In this document: positions 1-60,000 of the stretch, piece after piece
How positions within the stretch are numbered: position 1 is the stretch's first letter
How the letters are laid out: the number at the start of each line of letters is the position of its first letter
Assembly: GCA_947034885.2 (NCBI GenBank)
Contig: OX344758.2
Coordinates: forward strand, 8,868,501 to 8,932,500
Source of the DNA: Thuidium tamariscinum
Taxonomy: Eukaryota; Streptophyta; Bryopsida; Hypnales; Thuidiaceae
Length of the DNA: 64,000 nt
Reading direction: 5' to 3'
Notes under the pieces: generated by a model
Databases searched by the model: none
The model's input: the letters and a program-made list of their open reading frames with translations, nothing else
What the model was told of the DNA's origin: nothing
Made by a program: the position numbers and the translations under genes

Positions 1-944
1 TTTAGGAGTGGAAAGTGGAGATCTTCTACAATTATTTGACTTCAAATGAATTTTTTTGAATATTTTATTACCAATGATTCCGATAGTTTTAGAAATGCTA
101 AATTCCACAAAGACCTCACACATCCTTATAAGGTTAAAAATGCTAGAAAGTGAAGAAAATGAAAAAGGTTTTGTTGCACCAATGGATGTTTTATTTGAAA
201 TGATGCATGCATTATTTATGCAAAAGTTGTAAGTATTGCACTTCATAGTAATCCAATTAGTAAAACCAACCTTGGCCTTAAATTGTTGCAAAGGCCAAAA
301 AATAACCAATGGAAGATTTTGAAGATTAGTTTTAGAAATGAAGATTGCACCTATTGGTTCGAAAGCCAAATCATTTTTGGCAAAGTACCTTTGTGATAGG
401 TCTCATTCTTCCAAGGTTAACAAATTTTAGCCTACAATGTACACCTTTAGAATCTCAAGTCAATTTTTTACACATCTAAAACCAACATTACAGAAATTCA
501 TAGTCTAGTCATATGGCATCCAAAAACACATTCTAAGATAATCCTCTTTCATCCAGAACTTACACAAGCACTTGCATTACAATACGTAAATCATTTCCCA
601 CTGTGCAAAAACTCTTTATCATAAGGAGCTTATAAGGTCAATTTTAATAATCCCTGGTAGGTACCATGTGATATCATGTGCATATTTGCACCTGATATTG
701 GGCTCAGTCATGATAAAACACTTCCTACATTCTACATATCAGTTGTACAATGTAAACCCACAGGCAGAAGAATAACTCCAGAATGTGCACCCAGTTGTCC
801 AATCAGATGTTCGTTCCAAGCATAAACAGGTTATACGCAATAACAAAGAGTACAAATTCAAATTCCAAGGATGTCAATGATACCAGAATTGTTCCAGACT
901 GCACTTAGTGTAAGTCAGGACAAAAGAAGCAAAAAAAAATCCTT
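1..944. other. AT-rich flank, no gene recognised
   Basis: No coding pattern is visible on either strand. From about position 945 onward the sequence becomes alignable with the 3' flank of the second heat-shock factor gene, so the left part of this stretch lies outside that duplication. Confidence 0.5.
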
Positions 945-1302
945 ATAAATGGCCAGCATACCAGTAATCCACTCTACTGATACAAAACCGGTGCTCATCA
1001 TATTCATTAACGAATATCGACGTAAACCTACAGACTACTCCACCTCAACAAGGTACTTTCTATTTAGTGTACAATAGGACGGTTCTTGGGAACAAAATGC
1101 ACATACATTCATTCCAAATCGTCGTCACAAGAATTTACGGAGGGAACCTGCAGCGACAGTCGCTGATGTCTCAGGACTCCAAGGGTGCTTGCCCCCAGAG
1201 AAGCATGATCAATGATGCACCAAGCATGACGCTGCTATGTACCCGTCCCTCAGACGTCATCATGCTCTCCTGCACACCCACCAAACCAAACCCACCCGGC
1301 CT

Positions 1303-3574
1303 CTATCCAGGTGCAAGCTGCCCCATTCTTACAGACAGCTGGTCAACACTAGGCTTCTTCGACCACCAATCCTTCATATCTCCTCCCTCATCACCTATAT
1401 CTTCGAAGTCCCCCGCCGTTTCATCTACTACTGCTTCATTGCCATCAGCACCTAAACTCAACTCCTCCTCTAGTTCGTGATCTACAGCAGATGGACTCCC
1501 GCTTAGGAATTGCTCCCAGAACATATCGTTCGCAGCGGACACGCCTGGGCTACCCATGTTGGAGATTCCTTCCTCTCCATCAGATACGAGCCTGCTCCCA
1601 TCAACATGAAACTCCATAGGTTCTCCAGAAAGATCTTCAAGTTTAATTTCATCGCTGGAGTATTTGCTAAAGTTATCGTTACTCAACACACCTGATTTAT
1701 ACATGAGCGCAAAGATGAGTCAAAAATCATCCAGACAGAAAACGAGATTCAAATTTAACCATGAGCAATGCTCAAGAAGGGCAGAACATAAGTCCTCTAC
1801 CAAAATCGAATCAGCCGAATCAAAACTCAAGAAGGCTCATCCAAGAAAGTTCAAATCGTTCAAGTCAAGTATCTAAGATCATATATGAACACTTAAATTA
1901 CGTACTACAACCACATACCTTCTAGCCTTGGAATTCGCGCTGCCAGAGGCATCGGTAGATCCACCTGCTCAGGAGAAGCATCCGTCACAACGGGACCAAG
2001 ATATCCATCATCCAGCCCTGGCGTGTTCATTTCCGTCAATGTGACACCTGATTGCCGGTTCAGTGCACCCACATCAGGACCAGACGGTGCTGATCCCAAA
2101 TCCCTGAACAACGCCTCCATAGGACCACTGTCAAGACCAGGAGCAGACGACGCATCCGGTGAGTTGAAAAACTGCATTATCAAGGACCGAGCTCCATTCG
2201 ATTCCACCGCCCCGTTCGGCTGAAAGGCCACTATTTGATTATCGGCTGAAGTACCCGAGCTCATAGAATCATCTCCGCTCATCGAGTCTTGCTTTGGCAG
2301 ACGCCGCTTCTTTCGCACGCTCGCTGCAAGCCTCTTGTTCTCCGATTGTTGCATCAGTTGCGCAAGAAAGCTCGGATTCTGCATGGCTTTTGCAAGAAAC
2401 GACATCATGTGTTGCTGCCGATTCTCCGTTGTGTTCAGCCGCTGGCGCATTGCCTACATACAAGGATTCGCAACTCTCAGCAAAGTCACGAAGAGCACAT
2501 GTCCAGACCAATCACACAACAAAAGGAAAGACTCACCCTAAGACACCAACATCAATAACCAAGAACAAACCAACGGTCTATCCAAATTCAAGTACCTGCA
2601 TCTCTCGGTCCGTATTCTGCTGCTGCTGTCGCAGTCGAACCAATTCCACCATCAAAACGTTCTTGTCTCTCTTCAGCATCTCAATTTCACCTTCCAAACC
2701 GAACTTCCCCACTTCGACGAACGGCCCTATCGAACCCTGCTCGCTCAGCTGATGCTGGTGCTGATGCTGATGTGGATGCTGCGGTTGGGCTGATTGCTGC
2801 GAATGCGTCGCTGGTTTGCGACGATGGATGCCCCGCAGAAGATCGCGCCGACCGCGCAAGAAACCTTCGTTCGCGAACTCCCAACGATCCGGATCCACCT
2901 TGCGAAAACCCTGCAAACATTCAAAACAACCAAGTCACATCAGCAAGAACTCTAACTCGAAATCTAAAAAAGAAACACAAAAAAAGAATCCAAACGCTTG
3001 GAAATCTACTCAGAGGCCCAATCAACCAAAGAACTGGAGAAACCGGACTGACTCTGCTACCGTGCTCAAAAAGCAGAACAAAAGGGGGAATTGGCACCCT
3101 GCGTCTACTGTACTACGAAACAGGATCATCCGTTTCGCGAGCCAGATTATCTCCTACAATTCGCACTCGGAGCTCACAAACCACCACAATCCACCACGCC
3201 TAGCCAACCCTTCACCTCGGACCCCGAACAAAACTTACATAGGTATTCAATTGACGGACGAAGCTGGAAAAGTTGTTGTGCTTGAAATACTTCGGCAAAA
3301 GCTCCTGGGCGAAATCCGGGGGACTCCACACGATGAAGCTGTTGTTCCCGCTGCTCCAAGACACCACATGGTCCGTCGCGGGATCGTCCACCATATCATA
3401 CGTCTTCGTCAGAAACGGAGGCGGAGCAGTGCCCTGCAACCCGTCCATGGGCTGGGGCGCCTGGCTGCCCACAACAGAAGACGCCGGCACCACATCCGAA
3501 TTCACTCGGTCCTGTCCCATGCTCTCTTCCAGAGAAGGCCAGTGCGGATCCGTCTTCACCACCTGCGACACCAT
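1303..3574 (-). CDS. Class A1-type heat-stress transcription factor, copy A
   Basis: Four exons on the minus strand: 3574-3239, 2910-2596, 2453-1919 and 1691-1303, all GT-AG and phase-consistent, giving about 524 residues. The protein starts [12 protein letters not shown]; the GTG codons farther upstream are not taken as starts. The DNA-binding domain begins around residue 52 ([14 protein letters not shown]) and is split by the intron typical of plant HSFs between QLNTY and [10 protein letters not shown]. It is followed by a His/Gln-rich linker, a class-A HR-A/B coiled coil starting [13 protein letters not shown], a basic nuclear localisation signal (VRKKRRLPK), an AHA-type activator motif (DMFWEQFL) and a C-terminal export-like segment ([14 protein letters not shown]). 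These parts together fit an HsfA1-like master activator that trimerises and binds heat-shock elements in the nucleus. It is the inverted paralogue of the gene at 20398-22865. Class assignment is from motif memory, not a tree. Confidence 0.93.
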
Positions 3575-3655
3575 TCTCTTTCCTCTCCCTGCCACCACTC
3601 ACTCCCGCCTCCCCCCCATCTCCTGAATTCCACAAACTCAAAATCCCAACCCTCG

Positions 3656-3691
3656 CTAAGAACAAGAAATCGCACAGCTGATGAGTCTCAT
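3656..3691 (-). other. Upstream ORF 2 of HSF copy A (11 codons)
   Basis: The ORF reads MRLISCAISCS and ends 81 nt before the HSF start codon. The matching ORF in copy B starts with the same MRLISC but runs to 33 codons, because copy A lacks 9 nt in frame and has TAG where copy B has TGG. Whether it lies in the mature leader is inferred from its position. Confidence 0.55.
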
Positions 3692-3731
3692 CAAGCGATC
3701 CCCTCGCGTCCAGGAAAACGCAACTCCAACG

Positions 3732-3758
3732 TCAATTACTTGCTAACGCCACCGCCAT
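3732..3758 (-). other. Upstream ORF 1 of HSF copy A (8 codons)
   Basis: The ORF reads MAVALASN and stops. Copy B has MAVALGGN at the equivalent place with the same length and stop codon. Conservation of start, length and stop suggests a translated leader peptide, although recent duplication alone could explain it. Confidence 0.5.
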
Positions 3759-3785
3759 GTACTCCCTCAATCCGACAACAAAACG

Positions 3786-19874: not shown

Positions 19875-20204
19875 TGTGGAGAAATACAGACGTCATTCAT
19901 GCCAAGTGCAGTTCCCCTCGCCAGACTGCGCTGCACTTTTCCTTAGGGTTTCACGCACCCGGCCAATCTCCGACTCCCTCCAGTCTCCGCCATCTCCCTT
20001 GCCATTTCATCTTATGTCCCCGTCGTCATTGCTTTCTGCCGGAATTCAATTTCGACTTGGAGCTTCCATTCCATTCCATCGCAGCTGTGTCGGTGTAGCT
20101 AGTGTGAAAATCGCGCTGTCAACGATGGTCGGGCGCATCCCTCTCGTCATAAATGGAACAGGGTCAAATGGTCAAGGCGTTTTCATGTCCGGTTGAGGGA
20201 GTAC

Positions 20205-20231
20205 ATGGCGGTGGCGTTAGGAGGTAATTGA
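20205..20231 (+). other. Upstream ORF 1 of HSF copy B (8 codons)
   Basis: MAVALGGN followed by TGA, in the same place and of the same length as the ORF at 3732-3758 of copy A. An even shorter ATG-TCC-GGT-TGA lies just before it. Confidence 0.5.
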
Positions 20232-20271
20232 CGTTCGAGGTGCGTTTGCTTGGACGCGAGGGGATCGCTTG

Positions 20272-20373
20272 ATGAGACTCATCAGCTGTGGGGATTGGGC
20301 GATTTCTTGTTCTTGGCGAGGGTTTGGATTTTGGGTTTGTGGGATTCCGGGGATGGAGGGGATGCGGGAGTGA
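20272..20373 (+). other. Upstream ORF 2 of HSF copy B (33 codons)
   Basis: Begins MRLISCGDWAISC and is rich in Trp, Gly and Cys. It stops 24 nt before the HSF start codon. In copy A the same start leads to an 11-codon ORF because TGG is replaced by TAG. A ribosome translating this ORF would have little room to re-initiate, so a repressive effect is plausible but unproven. Confidence 0.55.
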
Positions 20374-20397
20374 GTGGTGGCAGGGAGAGGAAAGAGA

Positions 20398-22865
20398 ATG
20401 GTGTCGCAGGTGGTGAAGACGGATCCGCACTGGCCTTCTCTGGAAGAGAGCATGGGACAGGACCGAGTGAATTCGGATGTGGTGCCGGCGTCTTCTGTTG
20501 TGGGCAGCCAGGCGCCCCAGCCCATGGACGGGTTGCAGGGCACTGCCCCGCCTCCGTTTCTGACGAAGACGTATGATATGGTGGACGATCCCGCGACGGA
20601 CCATGTGGTGTCTTGGAGCAGCGGGAACAACAGCTTCATCGTGTGGAGTCCCCCGGATTTCGCCCAGGAGCTTTTGCCGAAGTATTTCAAGCACAACAAC
20701 TTTTCCAGCTTCGTCCGTCAATTGAATACCTATGTAAGTTTTGTTCGGGGTCCGAGGTGAAGGGTTAGCTAGGCGTGGTGGCTGTGTTGTCCACTTCTGA
20801 ATTGTTGGTATGTGACTAGTTGGATTGTGGTGGTTTGTGAGCCCCGAGTGTGAATTGTAGGAGATGATCTGGCTCGCGAAATGGATGATCCTGTTTCTCA
20901 GTACAGTGGACGCAGGGAGTCAATTCCCCCTTTCGTTCTGCTTTTTGAGCACGGTAGCAGAGTCAGTCCGGTTTCTCCAGTTCTTCGGTTGATTGGGCCT
21001 CTGAGTACATTTCCAAGTGTTGAGTTTTTTTTTTCTGTTTCATTTTTATAATTTCGAGTTAGGGTTCTTGGTGATGTGACTTGGTTGTGTTGAATGTTTG
21101 CAGGGTTTTCGCAAGGTGGATCCGGATCGTTGGGAGTTCGCGAACGAGGGTTTCTTGCGCGGTCGGCGTGATCTTCTGCGTGGCATCCATCGACGCAAAC
21201 CAGCGACGCATTCGCAGCAATCAGCCCAACCGCAGCATCCACATCCACATCAGCATCAGCACCAACATCAGCTGAGCGAGCAGGGTTCGATAGGGCCATG
21301 CGTCGAAGTGGGGAAGTTCGGTTTGGAAGGTGAAATTGAGATGCTGAAGAGAGACAAGAACGTTTTGATGGTGGAATTGGTTCGACTGCGACAACAGCAG
21401 CAGAATACGGACCGAGAGATGCAGGTACTTGAATTCGGATTGACCGTTGGTTTGTTCTTGGTTATTGATGTTGGTGTTTCGGAGTTTGTCGTTCCTTTTG
21501 TTGTGAGATGAAATGGGACATGGCAGCTGTGGGACTCTGCGCAGTGTAGTGTAAATGTGGTGGTTTGAGCGAACCCCACGCCGGATCTTGTTGAATTTCT
21601 TGCTGAGAATAGCAAAACCTTGTGTGCAGGCAATGGGTCAACGGCTACTCAAAACTGAGAGCCGGCAGCAACACATGATGTCGTTTCTTGCAAAAGCCAT
21701 GCAGAATCCGAGCTTTCTTGCGCAACTGATGCAACAATCGGAGAACAAGAGGCTTGCAGCGAGCGTGCGAAAGAAGCGGCGTCTGCCAAAGCAGGACTCG
21801 ATGAGTACAGATGATTCAATGTCCTCGGACGCTGCGGCCAATAATCAAATAGTGGCCTTTCAGTCGAATGGAGCGGTGGAATCGAATGGAGCTCGGTCCT
21901 TGATAATGCAGTTTTTCAACTCAACAGAGGATTCATCGTCACCTGGTCTTGATAGCGGTCCTCTGGAGGCGTTGTTCAGGGATTTGGGATCAGCCCCCTC
22001 TGGTCCTGACGTGGGTGCACTGAACCGGCAATCAGGTGTGACATTGACGGAAATGAGCACTCCAGGGCTGGATGATAGATACCCTGGTCACGTTGTTATG
22101 GATGCTTCTTCTGAGCAGGTGGATCTGCCTATGCCTCCCCATTTGGCAGCACGAATTCCAAGGCTAGAAGGTATGTGGCTTTAGTACGTTTTAGGATGGG
22201 TGCATCTTCTAGTTGCATCTATCTTTGTTACTTGAAATGAATGATTTATCCACTCGAAGTTTGGTGTTTGCTGATTACTTCGCGAGGAACATGGTTTTTT
22301 TTGCATTACTCGACTTGGTCCCGGATGGCAGTATTTAACGCTTCTCTTGGATGTGCGTTTTTGGTTTTGCATTCTTCTGTAGTTACGATTGTTTCGATTG
22401 CAATTCGAGCTGATGGATTGCTGCTCTTCCTCATTTCTGGAACCAGGTGGACTTAGTATGGAGAATGGGAGCAAGTATTCCAGCGGGGAAGGTAAACCAG
22501 AGGATCTTTCCGAAGATGCGATGGAGTTTCACATTGATGGGGGCAGACTGGTGTCTGATGGAGAAGAGGGTATCTCGAACATGGGTAGCCCAGGCGTGTC
22601 AGCTGCGAATGATATATTTTGGGAGCAATTCTTAAGCGAAACTCCATCAGCAACAGATCAGGAACTTGATCAAGAATTAGAGCAGGAACTAGAGCAGGAG
22701 TTAGGTTTAGGCGCTGACAGTAGGGAAGCAGATGAAGATGAGACGGTTGAGGATTCCGTGGAAGATTTAGGTGATGAAAATGGAGGAGATACCAAAGATT
22801 GGTGGTCGAAGAAGCCTAGTGTTGACCAGCTGTCTGTTAGAATGGGGCAGCTTGCACCTGGGTAG
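20398..22865 (+). CDS. Class A1-type heat-stress transcription factor, copy B
   Basis: Four exons, 20398-20733, 21104-21424, 21630-22170 and 22447-22865, encode about 538 residues. Domains: HSF DNA-binding domain about 52-145 with the conserved intron after QLNTY; a His/Gln-rich linker ([11 protein letters not shown]); HR-A/B coiled coil from about 187 to 258; nuclear localisation signal VRKKRRLPK near 265; AHA motif DIFWEQFL near 455; and a C-terminal [14 protein letters not shown]. It differs from copy A by an expanded acidic run made of QELD/QELE units near 470-484, produced by 12-bp tandem repeats, and by an [12 protein letters not shown] insertion-like stretch. The first in-frame ATG after the upstream ORF stop was taken as start. 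The role inferred is the same as for copy A: nuclear trimeric activator of heat-shock genes. Confidence 0.93.
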
Positions 22866-23240
22866 AGGCTGCGGGGCTGGGTGCTGGAGAGCTTGACGAC
22901 GTCTGAGAGATTGGTATATAGAGGGCGTTATCTGTTTTAGATCAAAACTGGTGAAGCCACCAGTATCGTATTTGAATTGAGACGTTCAGGAATCAGGTAC
23001 TCACGCTAGACATTGGCGACTTGCGCTGCTGTTCCTCTCCGTAAATTTTTTTGTGATGACAATTTGTAGCGAATGTACGTGCATTTTTGTTACGGACAAC
23101 CGTCTTACTGTGCACTAAATAGCGATTACCTTGTTCAGGTAGAATTCGTTTGTAGGTTTACTTTGATATTCAAGAATTGAAACGATGAGTACCTGTTTTG
23201 TATCAGCAGAGTGGACCACTGTTTCGCTGGCCATTTGTCA
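22866..23240 (+). other. 3' untranslated region of HSF copy B (inferred)
   Basis: The sequence is conserved with the minus-strand 3' flank of copy A, including CTCCGTAAATT, GCACTAAATAG and TTTTGTATCAG. No single poly(A) signal stands out. Confidence 0.45.
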
Positions 23241-24850
23241 ATGATCTTTTTTTTGTCATGACTGCCAAACCCTTATGTCATGGCTTACACAATAGTGGAA
23301 GTTTCGTGTTACGCTGACAATCGCTATGAACGAATTTTGCGATGTTTGTAAGATTCTCTTGCTCTTTGAGCTTGAAGTCTGCACTAGAAATTTGATAGAC
23401 GTGAATATGTGATGCACGGCTCTTGGTTCACGCTTTGGTAGCATTCTTCAATAGACTCGACTGTCTAATTGCACACTCAATTTGCATATTTCTTGTATAT
23501 CCTGGTAATCTTTTATGTTTTGTGCAAAATTGCCAGGACAACCTCCTCATGTCAAGTGCGAAAGCACGTACCAGGAAATTTATAAAAAAAGTTGCAACTT
23601 CCATATATTATTCATTGTGATTCACCTGCTCATGCACTCATCTCAATTGTCCCATCTGTTTCAATATACCTTGACTTTTTATTAGAACTTATTTAAGTTT
23701 CAAATTGGATCTTCCCAGACATTGTTCGACCTACAAGAAGTATTGCATTTCAGATGCCCAATTATGTCCATAGAAAGTGTGCAATTGAGGACAATTCAGT
23801 GCAGTGGCTCAGAATGAGAGCTTAGTCGACTTAGAACAAAATGATCGGCGGACATACTCACAAGCAAAGACAATTGCCCTTGATGACTTGAAGAACCACC
23901 ACTTGGTCCAACCGAGTACAACGTTGCAATTCAAAGTCTGAAGAATTGCAGGCCTATTTCAGATGCAAATTCAAAGGTGCTCAACCAGGATTCCTTCGAA
24001 TGTTAAGTTCCGTCAACAAGTCCAAAATTTCTTTCAGTGAAAACTTGAGGCATCTTTCTTGGCAGTGATGCAACCCAACGGGAAAAACAAAAACATGTAC
24101 CTGGCAACTTCAAAAAAGTGGAAAGCTCTGGCTTGTCCATATTTTACTGCAAAGATATGCCTCAAATTCTGATCACTAATCCTTACACATACTTCGGACG
24201 AACAAAATTCTACAACACCACTTAGAGCTTTACTCAACTCTCTATCAGACAGTTGGACATTTGAACAACATCAAAAAGAGGTTCACATTTGCCCTGGAAA
24301 CCCTAATCAAATCGGATACTACAGTGGATTTGAAAACAAAACGATGAGATCCCGAGGCAAACAAAACTCGTGAGAGTATACCTGCACTGTACAGTACATC
24401 TATGTTACACCTAATTCCTTGAGGAACACGTTTCGGAAGATTTTCAATTGCCGGAGTGCAAATATCATACCAGGAGTGTCAACCCACATTTTCCTCCACC
24501 GTGATAAATGAAGGATTTGGCCGCCTCCTCGTTCTCCAGTTGCTGCTTTCGAAGAACAAGCTAAAACCCATTGTTTTCTGTCCTCCAGATCCTTTACAGA
24601 GTGAAGAGTTGAAGTCTTCCTCTGACCCCATATTTGCGTACTTGAAGAAAATCTCGGATCCAAACACCAACGTGTAGGAACATTACGTCTCTAATAATTA
24701 TACCACATGAACGCAGATACACAGCAAAAGGAGGCGAACGACGTTATTCATACTGACGAGTTAACCCTAATAACCCATGAAACATCCCTGTTTTTGAAAA
24801 GAAACTGAATTGAAAAGCTGGCTCGAGGACAGAGCTGGCTGTGACGTGAG
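23241..24850. other. Intergenic DNA between convergent genes, no gene recognised
   Basis: Moderate GC with scattered ORFs below 90 codons on both strands; none resembles a known family and overlapping frames are equally open. Part of it is probably 3' untranslated sequence of the two convergent genes. Confidence 0.45.
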
Positions 24851-26469
24851 TTACGGGTAGTAATCGTCGTAGCCGTGGTATGGCCAGTTGTACTGCTGCT
24901 GGTACCCAGAGCCATAATACGAGTTAGCCTGATCGTAATCCGGAAGCTGGTAACTCGACTCCGGTGCTGTCATGGGTGTCGTCTCTTCGAAATCGAATGG
25001 AAGATTATCCGCCCAGCTGGAAGGAGAAACCTCCGGAGGCACTGGGAAATCATCCCACTCGAATTCCTCTGTCGCTTCACCCGTAGTTGACGTCGATGCT
25101 GCTGGAACTGCACCACAATTGAAGACACTATAAGTCTCCGAACTTCGCAATTCGTAATTCGCGAAATTGTATTTCGCGAAAATGACAAGTTTTAACATGA
25201 ATTTGCACGTCGAGTCCTAGCTCGTGTTTCAGCGAAGTTGGAGCCACATGTTAGACATCATGTACCCAACACCATGAATTTGGCACAAACCCGTGATCGA
25301 TTAATTCTAACCCTTTGACACAGACCCATGAAAGTCAAACCTTCTAATTAAATTTCATGATCCCAGGAGTGTTGCATCTGATTTTAGCGAGTCACACTAC
25401 AATAGGAAGTAGCTAGCGGTTGCAACAAATCATCAAATATTTTGCGATGGTTTTGTAGTGGTTCCGGACTCTGCCGATCAATTGCTAACCATTCCAACGT
25501 ACAGTGAAGCAAACTTGCTGCATGCAAAAGTCTTGGGCAAGTAACCAATGCAAATCTATCTATACAGCCTAAACTGTTGAAAAATCTACTCCAATCATAA
25601 ATAGTTGCAATTACATTCAGCACAACGTTGTACTAAACCATCAAAAATCGTTGACATATACAGTACATTATCTGGCGGTCATTGCAAGTCCGTTGCAAGA
25701 CCTACTGCCAAAACTCAGAATTTTGATTCGTAATGGATATTTTGGTTTACCAGTCGTTGCAATCTCTAGTAGTTGCTAACACATTGCACAATTAATGTTG
25801 TACAAACCCATTTCAAAATTTGTTAAAAGAATTTTGTCGGTACGGTCGATTACTCGCAATTCCGTAGCAAAAGCTATTCCTTAGTTCTGAAGTTCTAATG
25901 AACATGCTGTCGATCTTACCAGGGTTCATCGGCCCGGACTCCATCGCCAGCTTCCCGTACTTCTTCACCACCTTCCTCAGCTCCGCCGCAAAGTCCTGCC
26001 TCTGCAACTCCGTCGAAATCGTCGGGATCTGGTCATATATCGGGTGCCCATTGAAGTTCAGCGACGACTCACTCCCGAAGTATGTGATAGCCACATCGTA
26101 AGCGTACGCTGCCTCTTCCGGCGTGGAGTAAGTCCCCAACCACCACGTCTTCGTCGCTCTCGGAGGTCGAATCTCCGCCACCCACTTGTTCTGCTCCTTC
26201 CGGTACCGCACGCCCTTGTAGGCCGCCGTCTGCTGGCTCTCCACACCAGGAGAGTTGTACTCTCCAGAAAATTGTGGCGGAGTGGAGGATTGAGGGGAGG
26301 ACCCCCGGTCCTGCTTGCGGTGGACGTTCATGTGGCCGCCGAGAGATTGGCCGGACGTGAAAAAGTTGCCGCAGACTTTGCACATGTAGGTGCGATGACC
26401 AGGGGAGCCGCCGGGGCTACCGCCACTGTCGCTACTACAGTTCGAAAGGCTGGATTGTGCCATGACCAT
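24851..26469 (-). CDS. Fusion transcription factor: C2H2 (QxLGGH) zinc finger plus AP2/ERF domain
   Basis: Two exons on the minus strand, 26469-25920 and 25107-24851, joined in phase 1 (G|GTAAGA donor, TGCAG acceptor), give about 268 residues. Residues 28-50 form one C2H2 finger: C30, C33, H46, H50, spacing C-x2-C-x12-H-x3-H, with the plant signature QSLGGH at 41-46. Residues 84-140 form a single AP2/ERF domain (AYKGVRYRKEQNKWVAEIR, then WWLGTYSTPEEAAYAYDVA and LNF). Both lie in the same uninterrupted exon, so the fusion is not a gene-model artefact. The second exon encodes an acidic stretch (EEFEWDDF, then WADNLPFDFEE) and a Tyr/Gln-rich tail (YQQQYNWPYHGYDDYYP) that look like an activation region. 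A nuclear DNA-binding regulator is inferred; target and pathway are unknown. A second ATG two codons in is an alternative start. Confidence 0.88.
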
Positions 26470-47600: not shown

Positions 47601-47664
47601 AACTGCCTCACCCCAAATCGATCAATCCTTGCATTAGGGTTTCACTTCACGCAACTCTGCGCTC

Positions 47665-50210
<2,546 letters not shown>

Positions 50211-54099: not shown

Positions 54100-57000
54100 T
54101 TAATGAGGTAGGGAGCCACGCAGCCGTTTGTCGTCTCCCCTAACAGCTGCCTTGTTTTCTCTCTGGAGTTCTTGGAGGCGAATCATCACTGATGAGGCAC
54201 TGCTCTTCATGCCCAAAGCCTCATATGCAGCTCGTGCCATTCTTAGAGTACTGTTGTCAGGCTCAATTCTGCATCACGGAATGATCCATTCAGTTTCTAA
54301 AATTCTGGTGAAAATTTCAAAAACCTACATCATTAACTATAACTCATGACGGCACTCAGCTCATATCTATACGCACTTGGCAACAATCGAAAAATGACGG
54401 AGCGATCAATCCATGTGGGACTGTACCCTTGAGCCAGAACCTCGGCGTATAAGTCGACAAAGGTCTCCCAAAGCTCCAGTTGTCCCAAGCATGAAAGTAC
54501 AGGCTCGTACGTTTTCCAATTGGGTTGCATTTTTTCTTTCTGGATAGACCCCAAAATCTGAAAACCACCCCACAAAACATTCAGTTGGGAAACCTAGGCG
54601 AATTCTGAGATAGTTACAATCCAGTCAGACCATGATCACATCCATAATTTTATTATTTTCAATACAGGTATTCGAACTTCAAAATTTTAGCCTCACCTCC
54701 AGACACTTTCGCCACTTCAAGCCACGACTGTAACTATCAACCAAGATGTTAAATATCTGAAGAGTAGGCACATATCCAGCCTTTTGAAACTCAACGTACA
54801 CCTGCAGCCAAACAGCATAATGGAGTAGCCATGAGCAGTTGCGCTGAAGCACAAGTAAGGGAGAGAAGAATCATCTCATAACTTCCTGGGATCTTGTTGT
54901 CAATTGAAAGAAGATTCCACCATCGTAGCATGAAGTTTTGGGACCACATAAACAAACTATAAATTTTCAAAGTATTCATTATAGGTGTACTCAAAATTGA
55001 CCTAGGCTCTCATGTTGAGATCATATACATGATTGGATTTTGGCTCAGCTTGCAAATAGGAGCGGTTACTCTAAGTCCGACATGGGCTACTTGGAAAGCT
55101 CTGCATTATGATCGGTGTGCTCACAAAATTACTTCGGAGATAACATCAACAGACTTCGCCTCATTCTGTGACTTGTCGAGAAGTCTTAACACTATGTCAA
55201 GCAGAAATGAAACACTACTCTGAACTGACAGAACAATCTGTGAATGTACCTTGTGTAATCGATCAAGTTTTCCACTTCTACCAACAGCAGAGAGAAGATT
55301 AGTAGCCATGACGTCCGTAAGCTGTAATCGTGCGTTTTTCAAGTCTTCATACACAAAGAGAGAAGTCTCCCAGTCCTTAAGCCTGTTCACAAGATCGGTA
55401 AGTATTAGACACAATGCACTTATTTAACAAAAGTCTACTGAATAAAACTACCTGCATCTACAGCAACCATCAAAGCTCCAAACAATCAGGACAAAGTCAT
55501 ACTAATTATCATCAGCAATCAGATCAATACCTGTTACATGCTATCAACATTTCTGTGTAAGCAACGTCATTAAATGGAATTCTCCGTGCTCGTAAGGTTT
55601 TCCCAATTGCAAGAGCCTCTTCAGAGCGATTTCCTTTGTTCAAGACCATTAGAAGGGCTCCATATGCAATACTGTCAGGAGCTATGCCTGCTGCAACCAT
55701 CTCCTCAAACGCAGATTGCGCATGTTCGTACATCCCTTTGCATTACAATATGAAGGACACAGTGAATATGATTACAGATGGGATGACTTTGATACAGGTA
55801 GTCTCATGTAAGCAAAGGATATGACATACTAACATGAATGATTTGAATAAGCAGACCTGCATTGCTGTAGGTGAATACGAGACTCGTATATGTAACCACG
55901 TTAGGCTTGCATCCAGCTTTCTTCATATCATCGAATATCTCCCGTGCCTCATTGTACATGCCCTGCACGCAATACATGGCCACATTCTAATAAATGTGTC
56001 GGGCGGAGTGTATAAGATCGAGTCCAGCACATTTCAAAAGAGATCCACCATTAGCTTCACAAGCTCATTAGTGGTAAGATAATATAAATCTAATAGATCA
56101 ACATTATATCAATATTAAGATAATGTTTAATTTCAGTAAATGTTAACTTGATAGTTGCCAGTATAATACTAAGTAAATGCCAGGACACTAACATCACACT
56201 GACATTACGTTAACACTATTTTCTTTAAACTAACATTAACACAGTAACATCTGGGGTGGTACAATCTTTGAAAAAGAAATTGAAACGGTCTTAATTTAAA
56301 CTGGAATACTACTGCACACCCATGAACCAAGAAATAAAAGGCATAATGGAGGTTGACGGCATGTTGTAAGCGGATTCTGCGTTAGCAATGGTCTTACAAG
56401 CTTTGCGAAGGCATTGATAAGTGCTGAGCAGGGCTCCACAGTCAAAGGCACGCCAAGACCGATCATTTTGTCATACAAGTGTTTGGCTTGTTGGTGATCT
56501 CCAAGATTTCCAGCAGATTTGATAAGTTGTAAAAACGTGACCCCATTTGGTTGAACCTGTTCCTCTTCCATGACCTCCAGCAACACTAAAGCCTCAGCCA
56601 ACTGTCCAGCTTCTACGTACGCTGCAATGGCTGCATTGAAAGCCGGGGGGTTCAACACTATCCCCCGAATCTTCGCTTCCTGAAAAACATCTTTCACTTT
56701 CTGTGGGCACCGACCTCGTGCACAGGCCGCAAACAAAGAGCATATGGTGACCACGTTTGGTTCAATTCCAGCTTCGGCCATGTCATGCAGAAGCTCTCGA
56801 GCTTGCTCGTATTTCCCAGCTGCTGCATATGCATCCACCAGGCCATTAAAAGTGACGAGATTTGGTCTCCGTGATCTCTTCTTCATCAGGTCCAAAACTT
56901 CCTGAGCTTTCTCTGGATGACCCGACTTGCCAAACGCATTGAGCAGCGAGGAGTAACTCACAACGTCTGGTTCAAACCCTGCTTTCACTATGAGACCAAA

Positions 57001-60000
57001 CACTTTGAGGGCCTCCGTGTGCATTCCCTGCGACGCGTAAGCCCCCAAAAGAGTGTTGAAAGTCACTATCGTTGGAGACACACCTTCCCCTGCACATAGC
57101 GAATTCCTCGTAGTTGGAAAACTTAAAACTGAGAAATTTTCATAGCAGGCAATGCTACATCTAGAAAGAAACAGCTCCATGAATGTCAAATGAAGCATCC
57201 TCGTCTATGGCAACCCTAAAAGACAATAGTGAGGATGAACAACAGTACAGATTCCACTAATAGAAAAACCACCCCCAAAACGTATTCCAGAAAACTTAGC
57301 TACGTTAAAATTGCCAGGAAATAAGTTTAAGAAAATCTCTTAAATGGCATTATAATTGGTAAAGTTTAATGCGGCTAAGTTTAGTAGGATACCTCTAGAG
57401 AGTTGGAAACTTAAAGACTGAGAATTTCCATTCTAATCAGCGGCATTCTAGAAAGAAATGCCCCTTAACCGTCAAAATCCTCATGAATTACGATCGTCAA
57501 ACAGAACAGTGTAGATTTCACCGGTAGGAAATCAATACCGAGGAGTATTCTAGAGAATTTAACCGCATTATAATTGACAGGGTTTAAAACAACTAGATCT
57601 TCTTGAATAGAACCCCGGGGGAACAGGTGTACATAAATGAACTTGGATAAGTCGTTCTTACCATTCATCATATCAAAAGTTTCACGTGCCTTGGCAATCT
57701 CCCCGCGCACAGCATATAAATGCAGGAGAGCATTGAAAGTGATAACATCTGGTTCACACCCATTCATCTTCCGCATTTCATTGAAGAGCCTGATTGCATC
57801 TTCAAAGCGGCCGAGTTTTGTCAAGCAGTTGAGTATTATGTTGTGGCTGTATCGGTCAACAGGCACTTTCTTCGAGACCAGGTGATTATAAAATGCCACT
57901 GCATGACGCGGTTGACCTCCAGATTTAAACGCGGACAGAATGATATTGTGTGTCATCAGGTCGGGACCAACACCGTTGTCGGTCATACGCTTGCACACTT
58001 CTAAGGCTTTGAACCATTCGCCACTGCGTCCACATGCGTTGATTAAGTTGTTGTAAGAGCTTCGGCTTGGAGCAATCTGTGTTTCAAAACGATAACAACA
58101 ATGAGCACCTTAAGCATTCAAAATAATTATCAATTGAATTGGTCACCTGAAAACCTTGATTCCTAGATCCTTCGAAATCAAAGCTTCATGTTGCTCAAGG
58201 AGATACGGAGCAAAATCTGTGCATAGTACCCACCCCTGTAGGATACTCACACCAAGGGGAAATTCTAAACCCAAAAAATTTAAGATTTAAAAACTCGACT
58301 CGCACCTAGGGTGCAAATCTTCACCCTAATCCGATGTGGCACATGACAAGGGGGTTGGGTGGCGGTTAGGGTACGTCTTAAAACCTTGAAGTTAAATCCT
58401 ACCCCATAAGATTATAATCTTCAAAATAATTAGATGTTGGAAGGGAATTGTGAGGGTATGTAAAACCTCAGGAGAGGATGAGGTTTGTTTACCCTTGAAG
58501 GTTAAACTCCCTCCAATGTGTGAACGAGGAAAATTTATCCTCACATGGGTTATATTATAAATTCTTCGTATTAATCCCCACATAATTAAAATTTATAAAC
58601 TCTGTTTTCATCACCCTTAATTGTGAATGAATTTATAGGTATTTTAGGAAACCTGGTCACATTAAACCTTGTCAATTGCAATGCCAATTAAGACATTTTC
58701 TAACATGAACCCTGACATTTTCGAACTCAAGCATTGTAGATTTTCCAGAATATCTCAAGAGGAGAATTTTCTACTTCAGCTAAGTCCTCAGCAGAAACAA
58801 GAGGTGCCCACGAATATAAAAGAGAAAGGTGTCACTAACTAAACATCAAAAGCTAGGGAGCTTACACAGGCCCGTTGCATGTCATCAAAAATTTGCAGAG
58901 CCCAACGCCATTGTCCAGCTCGACCATGAACATTCATCAATGCATTGTATGTTTCCACATCTGGCTTGCACCTGAATTAACACCAACACTCCACAATTGA
59001 GAATTTTAACCGCAAAAGAGCTCTAGGATTCAAAGTTTGGAAATAACCAATTCCATTGATCATATTGTGCAAAATATAACCCAGATGGGACCAAGCTTGA
59101 TATCTCCAGAATCAGTGAAGAGCAATGCATGTGATAGCCAATAAACAAATCAAATTAAGCCAAATTCGAAGTTACCTGACCTCCATTCCTGCATCTCATA
59201 AAAGAGACTCCGCGCATGATCGACACGCTGATGTCTGGCGTGCAACCAGATCATGTAGTTGTAGATGTCAGTCCGTGCCCGGTAACATTTCTGGTTCTTC
59301 ATCCAGTTGAACACCCGCAAACTGTGTTCTATGGCCCCTGTCCTCGTCATTTCCTGCAAGAACATTCAGAATGCTCAAGTTATAATTGTGCTAAGCTTAT
59401 GCTCAAGTTCTATAAGATAGAGGACACTAAAACCGTTAGGACCGCATCCCGTCTCTTAATGACCCACCCCTGCTACCTACAGCAACACATCCCTTCCATC
59501 AACGCTTGCTTGGCCTTCGATTAGCAAGTTGAGTGTAACCATGACTTGGCAAATAATGTCTACGGCCGCTCCTCTTTGAATGAAAGCGGTATTTTCTACT
59601 ATACGTTAAATAGTGATCTAAAACCTCGCACTTCGAATGATTTCAAGAAGAACTCGTCATCCATCGCGTGCTATAACAATTCGATCTTAAGAGAGTTGAC
59701 TCTTAGTAATCTCTATGTTGAGTGGCCTCCCAATGAAACCACAATCCTAAAGATTGGTTAAAACGCTTAAAGCAACGGAAAGAGTGTACTCGACCTAGTT
59801 CCAACATTAGAGCAAAGTTCAACACTCTCAGAATTCACGGTAGAAAGTTAGAACGCGTGGTCAAAAGGGATGCAATCAACACGTCAGAAATTTCAACAAG
59901 TTCCTCACAGCACGAACTCTTCCGGGAAAAGGACAAAAACGACAATTGCGATGTGAAAGCCACAAGTCTGGAAACGCGCTCGTATTCGAAACATTAGAGC

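Follow-up and report, generated by a model that had tools for sequence, protein, structure and literature searches.

What kind of regulator results when a C2H2 zinc finger and an AP2 domain are read in one frame? The question is raised by a gene on the minus strand, at 24851-26469, of a 64,000-nucleotide stretch of the moss Thuidium tamariscinum (contig OX344758.2, positions 8,868,501 to 8,932,500; here called the window, from whose first letter positions are counted). Plant transcription factors with two unlike DNA-binding domains are few, and the RAV proteins are the textbook case. The reading that we favour, to which we give a probability of roughly one half, is that the locus encodes a single protein in which a SUPERMAN-like finger has been joined to the N-terminal side of an AP2 domain, likely the orthologue of the moss gene ISSUNBOSHI1 (IBSH1), and that this protein activates its targets by gripping two neighbouring DNA half-sites via a flexible linker.

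The gene has two exons, and its spliced coding sequence of 807 nt, stop codon included, encodes 268 amino acids. Exon 1 (25920-26469, 550 nt) holds residues 1-183 and the first base of codon 184, and is open over these 183 codons, coding together for the N-terminus, the finger, the linker, the AP2 domain and a helical tail behind it. It is followed by an 812-nt GT-AG intron (25108-25919, GTAAG...GCAG) and by exon 2 (24851-25107), which carries the acidic and aromatic C-terminal tail and the stop codon. A first-pass annotation of this DNA had read the finger and the AP2 domain from one uninterrupted exon, which holds for these two, but the interval that it gave contains the intron, and the tail (residues 179-268) lies nearly all in exon 2. 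The splice model is supported by the relative P0001, 88% identical to the window protein in alignment, because its 272-residue frame on a 2109-nt contig passes the splice point directly into the same C-terminal sequence, like a spliced transcript. The frame of P0002 continues past the splice point into the apparent intron. As P0001 opens at what the earlier reading took to be the third residue (MAQSS), translation may start at 26463 instead of 26469.

A Pfam scan of the 268-residue protein returned six families at E <= 1, to which the curated cut-offs were applied. The finger (residues 28-53, 26311-26388) scores 31.5 bits as zf-C2H2_6 against a cut-off of 25, and C30, C33, H46, H50 and the QSLGGH core are all in place, so that the complete plant-type finger of the first-pass annotation is borne out. 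The AP2 domain (residues 83-140, 26050-26223), also claimed there, matches in a single stretch over residues 84-128 (26086-26220) with 49.1 bits against 33.3, and this one match over the cut-off makes the protein an ERF-type member of the AP2/ERF superfamily. Its single QxLGGH finger places it with the SUPERMAN-like C1-1i group of C2H2 proteins, and SUPERMAN itself (1njq/2l1o) is the best C2H2 chain found among solved structures with the family profile (E 7.2e-10). In the AlphaFold model, the predicted local distance difference test (pLDDT) score is 87-91 at finger residues 31-50, 85-96 in the AP2 domain and 88-96 in the post-AP2 helical tail (residues 141-178, 25936-26049), which is conserved in related proteins; it is below 50 at residues 56-60 and 62-80 of the linker (residues 54-82, 26224-26310), which is predicted to be disordered. 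This model matches SUPERMAN 1njq (root-mean-square deviation 1.1 over 26 columns, Foldseek E 0.45), AtERF1 1gcc and TEM1 7et5, the TEM1 AP2 chains being among the best structural matches, tail included. The C-terminal residues 179-268 contain 16 D/E, no K/R, 17 F/W/Y and 13 P. An EAR-type repression motif is usual in the SUPERMAN-like C1-1i group; neither LxLxL nor DLNxxP occurs in the 268 residues, and repression through such a motif was considered and is not claimed. Together with the conservation described below, these results agree with the earlier proposal of a composite of C2H2 finger and AP2 domain, in which the two folds are predicted to be intact and the tail is plausibly an activation domain.

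The architecture recurs in other mosses. A search with the single protein returned 120 proteins, whose first 18 form a tight group with scores from 507 to 153 bits, followed by a drop to 50. A profile search found 548 proteins at E <= 1e-8, and among the best 120, which were listed, 17 have both Pfam domains, all of them inside this fusion family. Five fusions among the listed matches are assigned to a species, three to Ceratodon purpureus (M758_6G083500, M758_2G193100 and KC19_2G239900) and two to Physcomitrium patens (PHYPA_001489, here P0007, and P0012). The family is made up of two clades, A, to which the window protein belongs and in which the finger ends in GHMNVH, and B, in which it ends in GH[KR]N[LV]H and the N-terminal part is longer; of 7998 candidates scored with a clade B profile, 10 reached E <= 1e-8, and P0215 was added. 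A complete finger is present in 13 of the 19 clade A rows, the window included, and in all seven of clade B, and the 20 rows without exception read QSLGGH, of which only the S and the GGH are independent evidence, since a finger was counted as complete if it had the C2H2 pattern and Q-x-L. These 20 come from 31 rows, the others being four AP2-only rows, a paralogue on contig 9 of the window genome that keeps the ligands but reads QSLAGH, and six clade A rows (P0013-P0018) whose first residues are MNVH, where the finger helix ends. The six, which are probably truncated calls rather than finger-less proteins, were kept out of the counts.

Over the 13 complete clade A rows, mean identity is 0.83 in the finger, 0.86 in the AP2 domain and 0.75 in the post-AP2 tail, as against 0.30 in the linker and 0.24 in the C-terminus, and over all 20 rows the linker varies in length from 23 to 46 residues. 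The chief argument that finger and AP2 both work is this contrast between two conserved domains and the freely varying linker that joins them. A finger arisen by chance was rejected, as the invariant QSLGGH and the finger identity are conserved across genera, which makes chance very unlikely. The linker also contains an STPP motif, present likewise in six of the 12 other complete clade A rows (P0001, P0002, P0003, P0008, P0009 and P0010), which is a possible site of proline-directed phosphorylation between finger and AP2.

To which family does such a protein belong? PMC9520294 describes a moss-specific AP2 clade, that of PpERF24, by an acidic insertion after RxRx, a missing residue 19 and an EIRP with a following P, and these motifs are present in the window protein as RYRKEQNKWVAEIRPP. 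In a tree of the AP2 domain and tail (58 rows and 110 columns, flagged by the program for its small number of columns and its long branches), the fusions and finger-less genes of the window genome and of Ceratodon stand on one branch of 39 rows, which places the window protein in the moss-specific clade, apart from DREB and ERF (99/98); the other members of this clade were assigned by motif. The finger-less genes L023, L025 and L032 of the window genome carry the same clade motifs, but, unlike in the window gene, a scan of the frames at their loci showed no Q-type finger. Membership of DREB, which calls for V14 and E19 in the AP2 domain, was rejected because the Val is kept but residue 19 is missing, and membership of RAV because no B3 domain was found among the six Pfam families. 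Like RAV1 and TEM1, in which AP2 is joined to B3, the protein has two unlike DNA-binding domains per chain, but what accompanies AP2 here is a C2H2 finger, which precedes it in the chain; and it differs from SUPERMAN-like proteins, whose one QxLGGH finger it shares, in having an AP2 domain and lacking the EAR-type motif. Judged by eye, the helix behind AP2 is similar to the corresponding stretch of some DREB-like proteins (P0216 and P0217, for example), and this resemblance is a hint of a DREB-type ancestor of the moss AP2 clade.

The window protein groups in the tree with P0007 (93/80), and this leads to a published gene. PMC9520294 names Pp3c17_13620 and Pp3c1_32440 as YAYD examples among AP2 domains that fit none of its clades. 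Both P. patens fusions that were found, P0007 and P0012, read YAYD, a motif of clade A, and the window protein likewise combines this motif with a C2H2 finger. Pp3c1_32440 is IBSH1 of P. patens, which is induced at 10g, and whose full-length coding sequence was cloned from cDNA (PMC12266102). In that study, knock-in, overexpression and repressor lines were made; overexpression gave 30-60% more gametophores and chloroplasts that were larger by 29-88%, and an SRDX repressor fusion gave smaller chloroplasts and less photosynthesis in two of three lines (1 and 11). IBSH1 is treated there as a single-AP2 protein of a moss-only cluster, and the terms 'zinc' and 'C2H2' occur 0 times each in the main text; the window gene, from another species, differs from IBSH1 as published in having a finger. 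From the shared YAYD motif we infer that PHYPA_001489 is Pp3c1_32440; on this basis, one of the P. patens pair of fusions probably represents IBSH1, and the window gene is likely the orthologue of moss IBSH1. The first-pass annotation knew of no described protein with this pairing, and literature searches, with most subscription journals and all supplements out of reach, likewise found no description of it; the pairing is nevertheless that of a conserved family, whose P. patens member is probably the published IBSH1.

The window genome (363 Mb in 19 contigs) has at least 76 Pfam AP2 matches, and when the 76 AP2 places were scanned for neighbouring frames of at least 50 residues with a Q-type finger, two had one, those of the window gene and of the contig 9 paralogue; the clade B signature was found at none of the 76. 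According to a review (PMC7044346), change of any QALGGH residue other than Q abolishes DNA binding, and the paralogue finger, with its QSLAGH, is predicted from this to be non-binding. The ratio of nonsynonymous to synonymous change between window gene and paralogue is 0.18 in the AP2 domain and 0.12 in the tail, 0.96 in the linker and 0.75 in the finger, the last based on only 8 changes. Within the 8 kb examined, the paralogue (L013:3178-5363; G000:C9, about 12262178-12264363) has nothing that can be recognised as exon 2. Behind a plausible acceptor there is, in frame, a second divergent AP2-plus-tail unit, and the gene model that joins them may encode a protein of the order finger-AP2-tail-AP2-tail.

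The best reading of the fusion, by analogy, is a RAV-like logic without a B3 domain. In RAV1, the AP2 domain reads CAACA and B3 reads CACCTG (PMC2688026). The first-pass annotation had already suggested that the protein could read a bipartite DNA site, which is plausible. In the moss protein, AP2 would contact the main DNA site, the finger would add a short second contact next to it, as B3 and AP2 do as a pair in RAV1, and the disordered linker would permit loose spacing of the half-sites. The acidic and aromatic tail would then activate transcription, with chloroplast size and gametophore number as the output, as published for IBSH1. The role of activator is supported by the opposite directions in which the SRDX fusion and the overexpression of IBSH1 act.

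Several observations weigh against this two-site activator and against its identification with IBSH1. The finger and the AP2 domain have no predicted fixed arrangement relative to each other (predicted template modelling score 0.54), and of what we take to be the nine DNA-contact residues of AtERF1, six are identical in the alignment, one is replaced by Lys, and Trp154 and Arg170 are lost. In clade B, P0126 has Cys at the core Phe of the finger, and P0122 and P0125 have an LxLxL match, so that repression is possible there. The grouping of clades A and B is not strongly supported, clade A itself is split in the tree, with P0017 and P0018 apart from its other members, and the AP2-only P0127-P0129 are adjacent. 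As the QSLAGH of the paralogue and the ratios of finger and AP2 suggest, the AP2 domain can stay constrained while the finger of one copy decays, and the finger would then not be indispensable. As to IBSH1, an id search of the literature found no paper or id table that links PHYPA_001489 to Pp3c1_32440, PHYPA_001489 has Gly where PMC12266102 reports a mostly acidic insertion, the IBSH1-Citrine fusion is described there in the cytosol besides the nucleus, and the YAYD pair of PMC9520294 is introduced by 'for example', as a list that is not exhaustive.

The rival that survives best, which we nonetheless regard as somewhat unlikely, is that AP2 alone reads DNA, the finger being a protein-protein or nuclear-retention module that is conserved for partner binding. 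One plant finger by itself binds DNA only weakly, and the contig 9 paralogue, with its altered finger core beside a constrained AP2 domain and tail, speaks for this explanation. It is opposed by the QSLGGH of all 20 complete fingers in both clades, since such strict retention points to DNA contact by the finger, and by the loss of binding reported in PMC7044346 for QALGGH changes other than Q, although the fusion family itself has S for A in this motif.

A different question, compatible with any of these mechanisms, is how often the fusion took place. From the sequences we infer one event, in which a SUPERMAN-like finger came to stand before an AP2-plus-tail gene of the moss-specific clade before Ceratodon and Physcomitrium split. 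That clade A and clade B instead each gained the finger by a fusion of its own, in front of related AP2-plus-tail genes, appears improbable. The helix ends of the two fingers differ, as do the N-termini in length and sequence, and P0127-P0129, which lack a finger, stand beside both clades (91/79). These three are perhaps truncated calls, however, the motif [ST]-x-QSLGGH is common to both clades, whose linkers overlap in length (25-35 in A, 23-46 in B), and A and B join at 82/93, which leaves a single origin uncontradicted.

Returning to the mechanism, it is very doubtful that AP2 no longer recognises a specific DNA sequence and has left the finger as main reader, which the missing equivalents of AtERF1 Trp154 and Arg170 and the inserted Glu of the acidic insertion would favour. 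That two adjacent genes were read as one is hardly credible and was rejected, given the 183-codon open exon, the same domain order in one frame in relatives, including the spliced-looking P0001, and, if IBSH1 is a fusion, the amplification of its full-length coding sequence from cDNA (PMC12266102).

Elsewhere in the window, an inverted duplication (931-3785 and 20178-23253, about 16 kb apart) is 91% identical over 1.3 kb, 88% over 0.6 kb and 73% over 0.8 kb. Its open reading frames at 1905-2453 on the minus strand and 21555-22184 on the plus strand look like heat-shock factors in their C-terminal half, though without a Pfam match. At 47638-48207 on the plus strand lies a portion of a gene of the proteasomal ATPase type (Prot_ATP_ID_OB_C, 48.7 bits), and a pentatricopeptide-repeat gene lies at 56296-58109 on the minus strand, with open reading frames at 56296-57204 and 57465-58109 that each hold several PPR_2 repeats.

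As for the moss fusion as a two-reader protein, we tentatively propose, as something possible rather than established, that IBSH1 forms, together with its relatives, a separate C2H2-AP2 class of mosses, in which a finger was captured by a moss AP2 gene and targets would be chosen by the spacing of half-sites. Such a conserved class, whose named members so far all come from mosses, would be a second kind of plant factor with two unlike DNA-binding domains beside RAV, and would add domain capture to the lineage-specific expansion of AP2 genes. If this is true, the published gravity and photosynthesis phenotypes of IBSH1 rest on a second DNA-binding domain that is unreported in that protein, and the existing IBSH1 lines would be a ready system for asking what the finger does in chloroplast size, gametophore number and the response to hypergravity.
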